Shown: one piece after another, positions 1-47,445 of the stretch
Layout: every line of letters begins with the position of its first letter
Position numbering within the stretch: the first letter of the stretch is position 1
Assembly (NCBI GenBank): GCA_011109175.1
Contig: RDEW01000002.1
Span: 551,885-615,884 of the forward strand
Direction: 5' to 3'
From: Dicyema japonicum
Taxonomy: Eukaryota; Dicyemida; Rhombozoa; Dicyemidae
DNA: 64,000 nt
The notes under the pieces: model-generated
What the model was told of the DNA's origin: nothing
What the model saw: only the letters and a program-made list of their open reading frames with translations
Databases searched by the model: none
Position numbers and translations under genes: made by a program

Positions 1-1119
1 AAAGTGAGCTACTTCATGCCCAGGAGGAAGTCCGTAAGATTCAACTTCCTCCATTGGTGATCGGACAGTTCTTAGAAATGGTAGAAGAGGACACAGCCAT
101 AGTGGGGTCCACCACTGGCTCGACGTATTACGTGAAACTCGTCTCCACCATAGACAGGGAACTCCTGCGTACTGGATGTTCTGTTGGTCTCCATAAACAC
201 AGCAATGCCGTGGTGAGTGTGCTCCCACCAGAATCGGACAACACAATTATGATGATGACTGCTAGTTCACTTTTTATTAACGATAGGGGAGAGACCGGAT
301 ATCACATATGCTGATATTGGTGGATATGATATTCAGAAACAGGAGGTGAGGGAAGCTGTGGAACTCCCTCTTAGTCAGCAGGACCAATACAAACAGATAG
401 GGATAGATTCACCATGTGGAGTCCTTCTTTATGGCCCCCCAGGATGTGGGAAGACGTTAATGGCACGTGCAGTAGCCCATCATACCAAAGGTAAATATTG
501 TGATAAGTTTAGCTGCATTTATAAAGGTGGTTGGATCGGAATTTGTGCAGAAATACCTGGGGGAAGGTCCCCGAATGGTTAGAGATGTGTTCAGACTGGC
601 TAAAGAGAACTCTCCTTGTATTATCTTCATAGATGAAGTGGATGCTATTGCTACAAAACGATTTGACGCTCAAACGGGGGGTATTTTTAGTAAATAAAGT
701 TAGCTGACAGAGAAGTGCAAAGGATTCTGTTGGAACTGTTAACTCAAATGGACGGATTCGAGGAGACTACGAATGTGAAGGTGATAATGGCTACAAACAG
801 AATGGACACATTGGATCAGGCATTGTTGAGGCCTGGGAGGATTGATAGGAAGGTGGAATTTCCTTTGCCAGATCGAAGACAGAAAAGATTAGTATTTTCG
901 ACGATAACGGCTAAAATGACATTGAATGAGGATGTGGACTTGGAGGAGTTTGTTGGAAGGTCTGACAAAATATCAGGGGCTGACATTAACTGTATATGTC
1001 AGGAAGCTGGCATGCAGGCTGTAAGAGAGAACAGATACACAATCATGCAGAAGGACTTTGAAAAAGCTTATTCTAAGATTGTTGATAAGAAAATTAACGA
1101 CTTCGAGTTTTACACTTAA
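1..1119 (+). CDS. PSMC4: 26S proteasome regulatory ATPase Rpt3 (PSMC4), 3' part
   Basis: AAA ATPase of the 19S base that unfolds substrates and opens the 20S gate. The 5' end lies outside the window; the reading frame begins at base 3. Four exons join cleanly (1-264, 287-490, 513-680, 704-1119), giving 349 codons to the TAA at 1117-1119. The three introns are 22, 22 and 23 nt, all GT...AG and phase 1. Visible motifs are the OB-fold stretch STIDREL, HKHSNA, Walker A GPPGCGKT in exon 2, [15 protein letters not shown] at the start of exon 3, Walker [10 protein letters not shown], the sensor region MATNRMDT and the arginine-finger region RPGRIDRK. Identity to animal Rpt3 is high along the whole length and there are no lesions. 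It therefore serves as the control showing that the tiny introns are real. Missing: the N-terminal coiled coil. Confidence 0.96.
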
Positions 1120-2330
1120 TAACAATGTTTTCCTTTGTTTTAATATTTTTGTTTGCAATCATCCTTTAACCAAGTTCATTATTAAAATGCAAAATTATAT
1201 GATTATAAAAGTTTTCAAATTTAAAATCTCTCTTTTCATGCAACAAAATAGAAATACTCTTTCCACAACCAAAACAATATATAAACTTTGTTTCTCACGA
1301 TATAAAGACCAAAAACTACTGGAGAGGCCACAGAGTTTCGTAGACGCCATCGGTTCTGAGTGTGTCCAGACGTCCCAGGTTTTTGAGGTAAGACAAAATT
1401 CTCTGTTTTTTGTTTCAATTGTCTTACAACAATCCCACAAATTAAAAAATAATCTGCAGTGATTGGGATTACATTGGTGGATCTCCCATTTCAAAAATAT
1501 CTTTTCTTGATTTTTTCTGTAATAAGAAACCTTTATTTGCATATTCACGATGCTATTATGCATGACAAAGCGTGTACAACATGAGAAACCAAAAGATTAG
1601 TTAATTTTCCTGCTTTTGCATCTTCAGTACCAGATCACGAACCCGTCGAGGTTCTCATTTCTGAGACGTCCCCTGATTCCTCTAAGGAGTTCATTCAAGA
1701 TTACCGGAAGGTAATCCTAGGTTTCTTTTCGAAGTGAAGTAGTCCAATTTTGGCAGGCTTTCCAGATCCATTCTAAAGACATGACAAAAAATCTCCATCT
1801 AGATTCCACTATTTTCCTCAAATCGTGTTGCTTCCCGTCTATCTTTAAATTATAGCTGAAATATGTCTAATGTGGTTCTAGGGAATGTGGTTCTGGTCTC
1901 TATGTAAGAACTTTAGCTTTTCCAAGTCTTTTTTTGTTCATATCAAGGTACCTGCGTTGTATAGGGGTGCAGGCTTTACGATTGCATTATAGTCAAAATT
2001 TATGCTCACCTCAGATCCTTAATAAGAAAAAGGTTTTTTATCTTGTACAGGGCGTCATTAGTCAAAGTTTTTCTTATTATAATGTCTTTATGATCCCCAA
2101 TCAGGTCCCTTTGAATGATTTCTTGTGTTTTCGATATATCATTTATCGTCAGGGAGTCCGTTTGCGATAACAATAGATTTTTTCTTATGCACGTTAGTTG
2201 AGTTGACAGCCAATAGGGCTTCTTTTATTTAGATCTCCACAGATGATGCTATTATTGAAGGTAACCAGTCTTGATAGGTTTGGCATTATATAGCTCCTCG
2301 GCCTCCATCTCTTCTATCTTTCTGGTCCAT
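1120..2330 (+). other. Intergenic; possible exons of an unidentified gene
   Basis: AT-rich with no long frame. Three short open blocks are bordered by good splice signals: about 1321-1388 ending before GTAAGA, 1627-1709 after CTTCAG and before GTAATC, and 2233-2260 after TTTAG and before GTAACC. The middle block reads as an acidic stretch containing EPVEVLISE and SPDSSKEF. The implied introns (over 200 nt) would be far longer than every other intron here, and the phases do not settle on one frame. It could be a real gene with transposon-filled introns, or chance. Confidence 0.25.
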
Positions 2331-2339
2331 CTTAATTGC

Positions 2340-3110
2340 CTTGTATTCAGGTAATGAATTAGTAAGATAATTCCAAATGAGTTTAGTCTCATGAATCATA
2401 GTCACATCAATCTTCTGACTTGCCAGGAGTGAGCAGAGATCCCTGATTCTTCTTTTAATTCCGTTGATATTGAATTGAAAAAAATTAAAGTGACTTTCTC
2501 TTCAGTTGGCTGAGGATTTCCTCCGGGAATGTGTGTCTTTCCCGGAACGCATAGCTCAGAGACATGAATGTCTCGGGAGGAGAGGGTTTAATTGTCTTTT
2601 TCAGTGGTGGGCATTAGGTGCCACTTAATCGTTTCCAAATCTTGTCGAGCCGGTGCACTACCGCCACGCTATATAAAATTACGCTGAATGTAAGTTGAAA
2701 TGAATGAAAAATTCCAAAGACAGCAGTAACACCAAACTAATTATTCACGTGATCCGGTACGCTCCAACAGAGACCTCAACCTGACATGATCTTCCACTCT
2801 CGAGCCTTCCATACTCTTGAGATGATTTTCAGAACATTAACTTTTTTTCACATTCGATGATCACGTTTTCGATATGCGCTCTGTTTTGAACCCGTACTGA
2901 AATGACATGTCTGGTAGAACATCCTTAATTTTTGAAAGGACTGTCTTTATATCTTCCAGGTTTCAGAATTGGTCGTGTATTAGCAATTTTCCAAATAGCT
3001 GATATGACATTTTTGTTAATATGTTGAACAGTCTTTTTTGGACGTAAATGACTAATGTTAGCAGTTTTTTCAGTAAAATAATGGGAATTTTATCAGGACC
3101 GTAGGAGCAG
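2340..3110 (-). mobile_element. Family J non-LTR retrotransposon, scrambled remnant
   Basis: On the minus strand, 2360-2500 reads as the start of an apurinic-type endonuclease (FNINGIK, then VTMIHETKL), the usual N-terminus of Jockey/CR1-like elements in this window. Near 3060-3110 the minus strand shows YGPDKIPIILLKK, the junction between endonuclease and reverse transcriptase seen also at 58.1 kb. Order and frame are broken, so this is a decayed copy. Confidence 0.6.
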
Positions 3111-46160: not shown

Positions 46161-46289
46161 AGAACCCAACCAACCGTGGTAATAAATTAATTAATTGATG
46201 GCGATTTAGATTGTTAATGAGAATCTAATATTTTATAATGACTAAATATTAGTTATTTTATTTAAGGAATCTATAAACTTGGTTAATTG

Positions 46290-46580
46290 GTTGAAGTTTT
46301 CTGCTAGCTTGTCTCTTCTTCTCTCTTCCTATTAGACTGGCGTCATGTGATCCACCTGTCTAGGTGTCGCCCAGTGCCAGGCCGGCACCAAAAAGGATCA
46401 TTTGCTCTCCCTCACTCCACTGGAGGGGTTTCCACAACTGCATGTAATGGACGTCTTACCTTTTATGCTGATTCCGGATGGACTCTGTTTCTGTAGAAGT
46501 GGAAACTGGATACACTTAATTAGTTGTTTACTTTAACTTCAATCTCGGTGTATCCGGGGTTAATAAATTAAATTAAATTA
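46290..46580 (+). mobile_element. Family J retrotransposon 3' end
   Basis: Matches 36330-36470 (CCTGTCT..GT.G.GCC, CACTCCACTG.AG.G.TT) and ends ATACACTTAATTAGTTG...GTGTATCCGGGGTTAATAAATTAAATT. It interrupts the segmental duplication, so it inserted after the duplication or was lost from the other copy. Confidence 0.65.
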
Positions 46581-46612
46581 ATAAACTGATGTTAGTAATG
46601 TTAGTTTATCAA

Positions 46613-47445
46613 TTAGCAGACGTCGCAACTCTTTCTGCATCTGTGCATCCACGAGTTTGAACACTTTTTCCCTTTAACTGATTTACAATAATCTGCATAG
46701 TCCTCGCATACTTCAATTTATTTTGCTAATTACCATCACAACTTCCACACGTCTTTTTGCATGTCATTAATCTTGCCACGTGGTCAGTGTTGCAGTCAAT
46801 TTTTCCGCAGTATTCAGCAGTTGCATAATCAGTGCATTCTAAAATATGCCATTAATCCACCATGGACATCTCCCCCATTATCAGTCCCGGCACAATCGTT
46901 ACAACTTTTTTTACAGTACTTACGAACACTTTCTACAATTTTGCAATGTCCCATTTCTGCCCAATCATGACATGAAGAGTGGTCATCATTACATTCTATA
47001 TTATAAATACGTTATTTACTTAAATCGTAATCATCGTCGATTTTATTTTTCGGCGTTGTATCTTCCTTTATTACATTCTTTTCTTCATCATCCCCTGGCT
47101 TTTCATCTTCGTTTACTTCATCGTCATTGTCCTCATCCACTTCCAAATCATTTTCATCCTTGCTAACTTCATCGTCTTTGTCATCATCCGCACCCAAATC
47201 ATCATCCTCTTCTGCTGTCAATGCATCATCTGAATCGTCATCCATCTTGTAGTCTGAACTACCTTCTTCACCGCTTTCAAATTCTTCAAAGCCTTCTCCC
47301 GGTACATCATCATATTCAGCATCATCTCCAATTCATCAGGAATACCTTTACAATTTAGTAATAAACCTACTTTTTGCATATCCAACATTGAATAATGCCT
47401 AAAATAATAAGTAACAACTACCAGTAATATAAAAGCAGTAATCAT
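46613..47445 (-). CDS. Secreted acidic protein with three ShKT domains, copy 1
   Basis: Exons 47445-47422, 47398-47371, 47345-47020, 46995-46861, 46838-46734 and 46710-46613; introns of 23, 25, 24, 22 and 23 nt, all GT...AG. The first two exons encode a signal peptide ending near VGYA. Exon 3 encodes a long Asp/Glu-rich region (runs such as EEDDDLGADDDKDDE). Exons 4-6 each encode one six-cysteine ShKT-type module, exon borders matching module borders. The fold is named after a sea-anemone toxin but is common in non-toxic secreted animal proteins, proteases and cuticle proteins; nothing here indicates a toxin. Exon 3 lacks one base relative to the frame needed (near 47320), where copy 2 keeps it. 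So this copy is either slightly damaged or misread. An acidic stretch may bind calcium. Confidence 0.8.

Follow-up and report, generated by a model that had tools for sequence, protein, structure and literature searches.

Tiny Introns in Dicyemids and Other Eukaryotes

The closest described system is that of dicyemids, tiny animals that parasitize octopus and squid and are represented here by Dicyema acuticephalum, Dicyema sp., and D. japonicum; their introns have been reported at 26.2 ± 1.9 nucleotides (nt; n = 16; PMC2222250), at a median of 25 nt in a 2008 survey of 41 Dicyema introns (PMC2483917), and in other accounts at a median of 27 base pairs (bp; PMC6543705) or a mean of 38 bp (PMC6736024). 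Here we analyze a 64,000-nt stretch of DNA (the window, part of contig C87 in an assembly of 64.67 Mb and 191 contigs), together with conserved genes elsewhere in that assembly, whose introns have a median of 23 nt and favor an adenosine (A) at the seventh nucleotide from the 3' end (position -7), where it may be the branch point. Introns of about 23 nt are not new as a headline, because dicyemid introns this short have already been published; a sequence-only reading of the window had argued that they challenge models of splice-site spacing, which is fair, but the challenge is old, since dicyemids, Paramecium, Stentor, and the Bigelowiella nucleomorph all have them. What this analysis adds, and the part worth following, is the favored A at -7, for which we do not claim that it is unpublished.

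As reported for Dicyema, the genes examined belong to an intron-rich animal and carry tiny GT-AG introns; the median is slightly below the published dicyemid values of about 25–27 nt, and none of the 69 introns in our set exceeds 27 nt, with one of 47 nt outside it. The 2008 survey reported no branch-point signature for Dicyema, a result that came from motif counts, whereas here position was scored (PMC2483917). The ciliate Stentor coeruleus, with introns of 15–16 nt, is similar in its AU-rich sequence and weak consensus, and is reported to have conserved small nuclear RNA (snRNA) recognition sites together with U2AF2 and U2AF1 (PMC9505925). Its branch A is the tenth of 15 nt, that is -6, and so occupies a fixed place as the A does here, but the Stentor loop is 10–11 nt rather than mostly 16–18 nt, and the position is fixed in >90% of introns there compared with 65% here (PMC9505925). 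Trichomonas, Giardia, and Yarrowia likewise combine a fixed short distance between branch site and AG with the absence of a pyrimidine tract between them, but are described as intron-poor and have strong ACTAA(C) motifs, in contrast to the many introns with at most a TnA found here (PMC2483917, PMC12316389). Paramecium (about 25 nt) and the Bigelowiella nucleomorph (19 nt) share AT-rich introns and weak 5' sites, but are not animals, and the 2008 survey reports no branch signature for them (PMC2483917).

Introns of About 23 nt Interrupt Conserved Genes

Introns were located in 15 conserved genes, spread over 11 contigs (three genes of the window, seven AAA genes, PRPF8, SF1, V-ATPase A, V-ATPase B, and ATP5A) with a custom spliced protein-to-DNA aligner that can remove any GT..AG segment between 12 and 200 nt long. 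Every excision within a gene carries the same cost, set at 9 for the sterol reductase, INPP5A, and SF1 and at 12 for most genes, and intron length is therefore not built into the aligner; the templates were PDB sequences, with a database protein for INPP5A. Seven of the nine AAA loci fetched were used, leaving out a decayed copy (L047) and a two-domain p97-like gene (L048) across which the one-domain template jumps. Among 91 candidate introns, 70 passed a flank filter that demands good similarity on both sides, and removal of a 131-nt ATP5A excision that corresponds to a tandem duplication left 69. Introns of a ShK-domain gene, of four Pax loci, and of L047 and L048 stand outside this count, as do introns from a gene finder, which supplied the SF1 search query and the first ShK intron; untrained, this program settled on apparent repeats, and seeded versions recovered few genes.

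All 69 kept introns measure 20–27 nt, mostly 22–25 nt (one of 20, 18 of 22, 24 of 23, 15 of 24, eight of 25, two of 26, and one of 27 nt). The 22 removed candidates comprise 12 of 21–26 nt, one of 16 nt, and nine of 28–131 nt; we interpret these nine as excisions misplaced where the frame breaks or where exon is left unaligned. PRPF8 alone yields 29 introns, all of 20–25 nt, between exon pieces 68–91% identical to the human protein. Excision restores the reading frame in PRPF8, V-ATPase B, Rpt3, and others; Rpt3 had been credited with three introns, which is borne out, and without them it is a single open frame that shares 265 of 347 residues with human 26S subunit 6B. Its features in the window are:

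1..1119, + strand, Rpt3 / 26S proteasome subunit 6B; the window does not include the 5' end; E 1.8e-180 to the PDB 26S subunit 6B
265..286, + strand, Rpt3 intron 1, 22 nt, A at -7
491..512, + strand, Rpt3 intron 2, 22 nt, A at -7
681..703, + strand, Rpt3 intron 3, 23 nt, A at -7

The GT-AG ends of the kept introns follow from the construction of the aligner. When all 256 dinucleotide pairs were compared in the first 11 genes, GT-AG was the best, with a summed score of 16319 against 15246 for the runner-up and 7007 without introns. Without any splice-site rule, 61 of 85 excisions were 22–25 nt long, and 35 of the 85 fell exactly on GT...AG while 50 did not. An in-frame stop is present in 10 of the 13 introns of multiple-of-3 length among the first 56. 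A plain count of GT..AG spacings by length in the raw window gave no clear excess, since without the reading frame as a guide these sites are too weak.

The same filter applied to the four Pax loci retained eight of 11 excisions and dropped three. Two of the retained excisions (191 and 136 nt) were rejected as artefacts that skip open frame past the domain ends, and the six plausible Pax introns measure 23, 24, 25, 25, 25, and 47 nt. We take the segments to be GT-AG introns of about 23 nt, confirmed in substance by frame, length, and splice-site comparisons. The sequence-only reading had placed them at 19–29 nt with a peak at 21–26 nt, which agrees with the 69 introns but not with the 47-nt Pax intron on another contig, and it had extended them to all host genes, which is too strong; an ATP synthase gene elsewhere in the genome reads as a single 481-aa open frame.

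A Favored Adenosine Seven Nucleotides From the 3' End

Counted from the 3' end of the 69 introns, position -7 is occupied by A (45 introns), T (22), or C (two), and never by G. Shuffling the interior of each intron gives a mean of 22.4 (standard deviation 3.6), and the maximum of 10,000 shuffles is 38; decoy GT..AG segments of the window (n = 2,878) have A at -7 in 32.7% (Fisher p 8e-8). The signal is carried by introns outside PRPF8 (28/41), and when any one gene other than PRPF8 is left out, at least 40 of the 63–68 introns still have it. Genes fetched after the pattern had been noticed show A at -7 in 8 of 12 introns (p 0.004) and in 7 of 11 once the 131-nt duplication artefact is excluded, and the Pax loci show it in four of their six plausible introns. 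An A at a fixed distance from the 3' end therefore exceeds what composition gives, and we infer that it serves as the branch point.

Information above intron composition amounts to 0.375 bits at -7, no more than 0.07 bits at any other column between -14 and -4, and 0.18 bits at -3; T occupies -9 in 45 of 69 introns and -3 in 46 of 69, and the A often lies within TnA, in introns that are 76% A+T. No comparable peak appears when positions are counted from the 5' end, where positions 11 to 20 never exceed 31/69. A strong ACTAAC-like motif was not found in these introns, which match TACTAAC at a mean of 2.75 of 7 positions compared with 2.12 after shuffling. The 5' site is defined by little beyond GT[A/T], with a mean match of 4.9/9 to CAG|GTAAGT and 1.25 bits over +3 to +6 (1.12, or about 1.1, after small-sample correction), compared with 0.5 bits reported for Dicyema by a measure that may not be exactly the same (PMC2483917).

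Splicing Machinery and a Proposed Fixed Geometry

Several components of an ordinary spliceosome are present in the genome. Among the matches listed, 22 of 25 for U2 snRNA and nine of 10 for U6 snRNA exceed the Rfam cut-off, and none of the 11 for U1 snRNA does, the best reaching 69 against 69.5 bits. In the copies that were read, U2 carries GTGTAGTATC in 8/8, U1 carries ACTTACCTGG in 5/6, and U6 carries ACAGAGA in 6/6, which we take to be the usual forms of the respective recognition sites, and these sites thus look canonical. Six of the 25 listed U2 matches lie within about 111 kb (C115:851074-962467). Genes for PRPF8 and SF1 are present, as are U2AF2-like exons, and loss of SF1 or U2AF2 as an explanation is ruled out because both are there. 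The tryptophan of the human SF1 N-terminal motif, presumably the U2AF-binding one, aligns with a phenylalanine; that this weakens U2AF binding is speculation. SPF45 may act as the replacement factor: on contig C126 a UHM-like match lies near an RRM match, a pair that fits a PUF60-like protein just as well.

A minor spliceosome also seems to be kept, to judge from single matches over the cut-off for U12 (85.4 bits, C68:163471-163599) and U6atac (37 bits, C34:237761-237858). A regex for U12-type introns, run over 61 sequences (the window and L001-L060), matched loosely at 10 places, none of them convincing.

We consider it probable, and hold with good confidence, that the segments are spliceosomal introns of the U2 type in a dicyemid-like animal rich in introns, handled by an ordinary spliceosome with the branch site at a fixed distance. 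The A at -7 would be the branch point, on which canonical U1, U2, and U6 snRNAs would act together with SF1 and U2AF2 in a fixed geometry comprising a lariat loop of mostly 16–18 nt, a 6-nt tail, and 4 nt from the branch A to the AG; with the branch point so placed, a loop of 16–18 nt would form in 42 of the 45 introns that carry this A. U2AF65 is reported to recognize eight or nine pyrimidines (PMC8363638), and with only 4 nt between A and AG a normal tract of 8–9 nt would therefore not fit there. The missing tract space suggests that a distance ruler anchored at the 3' splice site, and not the branch sequence, would choose the branch site, and that U2AF2 either binds elsewhere, for example at T-rich bases upstream of the A, or plays a lesser part. 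That the branch site is set by such a ruler and not by a sequence signal, with A at -7 sufficient and the tract role of U2AF2 bypassed or moved, and with the minor spliceosome perhaps handling tiny introns as well, appears to us slightly the better bet.

A competing account is that the A at -7 reflects AT-rich, (TTA)n composition or an acceptor element, with branching at variable or unusual sites. It draws on several observations that, with others, weigh against a fixed branch site and short introns throughout. AT-rich decoys reach 43.9% A at -7; the TTA-rich introns of PRPF8 taken alone show it weakly, in 17 of 28 (p 0.03); and 24 of the 69 introns lack it, with another A nearby, in line with the lack of a branch-point signature reported for 41 Dicyema introns (PMC2483917). 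As to length, the nine removed candidates of 28–131 nt mean that the longest lengths retained depend in part on the filter, the aligner covers introns up to 200 nt in conserved genes, and the 47-nt Pax intron (L059, 336-382), about twice the usual length with good flanks and A at -7, means that introns longer than 27 nt exist. One V-ATPase A intron of 25 nt (L055, 921-945) apparently ends GT..GG rather than GT..AG, the assignment to dicyemids is made on indirect traits, and all introns here are predicted from genomic sequence. The compositional account is nevertheless opposed by the shuffles, which preserve each intron's interior composition and yield half the observed number of A at -7 (22.4 vs 45), by the signal in the introns outside PRPF8, and by the little information in the columns adjoining -7, and we regard it as possible but rather unlikely.

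An Animal and Probably Dicyemid Source

Among the best 120 of 227 relatives of INPP5A, every one named by organism is from an animal (several are unnamed; top identity 38%), and an animal origin is well supported. The genome size of 64.67 Mb and a GC content of 36.1% in a 264-kb sample lie close to the 67.5 Mb and 36.7% reported for a dicyemid genome (PMC6736024). One of the four Pax loci, L057, is Pax6-like, and its introns, at phase 0 in the paired domain and at phases 1 and 0 in the homeodomain, match published Dicyema Pax6; this locus was aligned with a Pax6 scaffold, one further excision at a frame break was dropped, and the Pax6 intron positions are common to other animals too. On contig C23, an ATP synthase with a full PF00006 match, identified as the beta subunit by eye, is encoded by the single 481-aa open frame mentioned above, although an intron before its first bases is possible, and ATP synthase beta is reported without introns in D. 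acuticephalum (PMC2222250).

The source is thus very likely a dicyemid, by circumstantial evidence from published trait values rather than from sequences of a named dicyemid. The earlier suggestion of a dicyemid-like animal accords with the INPP5A relatives, the Pax6 phases, genome size, GC content, and the apparently intronless ATP synthase frame. The fit to traits would also leave room for another compact spiralian such as an orthonectid; introns of the orthonectid Intoshia have a reported median of 57 bp (PMC6543705), whereas genome size, GC content, intron length, the apparently intronless ATP synthase frame, and the Pax6 phases here correspond to published dicyemid values, and we find this source improbable.

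Other Genes and Repeats of the Window

INPP5A, a type I inositol polyphosphate 5-phosphatase, had been assigned eleven introns in the sequence-only reading; eleven GT-AG excisions are indeed needed, but only five pass the flank filter. Intron 10 depends on the template, being 21 nt with a human sequence and 36 nt when any of the three top-ranking database proteins is used.

13008..14505, + strand, INPP5A, requires 11 excisions; the start given is that of the alignment
13050..13072, + strand, INPP5A intron 1, 23 nt, passed the flank filter
13115..13139, + strand, INPP5A intron 2, 25 nt, passed the flank filter
13244..13265, + strand, INPP5A intron 3, 22 nt, weak flank, filtered out
13351..13376, + strand, INPP5A intron 4, 26 nt, passed the flank filter
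13458..13494, + strand, INPP5A intron 5, 37 nt as placed, doubtful boundary, filtered out
13561..13582, + strand, INPP5A intron 6, 22 nt, weak flank, filtered out
13700..13723, + strand, INPP5A intron 7, 24 nt, passed the flank filter
13780..13802, + strand, INPP5A intron 8, 23 nt, weak flank, filtered out
13933..13960, + strand, INPP5A intron 9, 28 nt, poor flanks, filtered out
14066..14086 (21 nt) or 14051-14086 (36 nt), + strand, INPP5A intron 10, filtered out
14161..14183, + strand, INPP5A intron 11, 23 nt, passed the flank filter

For a sterol reductase, credited with four introns in the sequence-only reading, two of the aligner's four excisions pass the filter and a third intron is likely by reading; the other frame breaks, and with them some of the proposed introns, look like 1-nt indels.

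44027..45067, + strand, delta14-sterol reductase (ERG4/ERG24 family), E 1.1e-68 to 4quv_A; PF01222
44088..44110, + strand, sterol reductase intron, 23 nt, passed the flank filter
44490..44512, + strand, likely sterol reductase intron, 23 nt, found by eye inside a dropped 109-nt excision
44884..44906, + strand, sterol reductase intron, 23 nt, passed the flank filter

The ShK-domain gene does contain introns whose removal (20, 24, 22, and 23 nt) leaves its frame open to the end, though there are four rather than the five originally counted, each with A at -7 (4/4). A 23-nt candidate intron at 47399-47421 was rejected.

46614..47445, - strand, ShK-domain gene, PF01549 in one piece
47326..47345, - strand, ShK intron 1, 20 nt, from the gene-finder model, least sure
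46996..47019, - strand, ShK intron 2, 24 nt
46839..46860, - strand, ShK intron 3, 22 nt
46711..46733, - strand, ShK intron 4, 23 nt

The ShK gene occurs in two minus-strand copies (46575-47591 and 60489-61446) that are 88–93% identical. The second copy has frameshifts and stops and is apparently a decayed duplicate; in it the stretch that matches the 20-nt intron can be read in frame, and this intron is therefore the least sure of the four. For the DnaJ gene that had been proposed, a crude regex scan found no J-domain motif.

The window also contains a direct duplication of 2.1 kb (21127-23214 and 23399-25480; 98.5% identical), as well as reverse-transcriptase pieces (PF00078) and a weak, below-cut-off match to a Tc5-type transposase, at 54720-56207 (-), 35171-35875 (+), 9189-9575 (+), and 33881-34075 (+). 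We take the reverse-transcriptase and transposase matches to be mobile-element genes interspersed with host genes. At a low threshold, TRF masks about 12% of the window and L021-L040 (264 kb) as tandem repeats.

The 131-nt repeat in ATP5A (L054, C133:19400-21200) duplicates coding sequence in tandem and disrupts the frame; it may be a duplication, a pseudogene, or an assembly error. Apparent 1-nt indels in conserved genes (L041, L044, L057, and window 44404-44749) are perhaps residual long-read errors. That the short segments themselves are assembly indels, coding insertions, or decay is barely conceivable, despite the single-base frame breaks in L041, L044, and the sterol reductase, the decayed AAA copy, and the ATP5A duplication, because indels would not yield lengths of 22–25 nt, GT-AG ends, and a favored A over 15 genes, nor does this account sit with the in-frame stops noted above.

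Implications for Intron Recognition

Animal introns of about 23 nt lie near the lower limit for a nearly standard spliceosome, and gene finders tuned to longer introns will break the genes that contain them. A fixed branch site, if true, provides a simple and testable recognition rule, links an animal with the ciliate Stentor, and poses the question of what SF1 and U2AF2 bind where there is no room for a pyrimidine tract. The contiguous assembly and the intact-looking snRNA genes make this rule testable.

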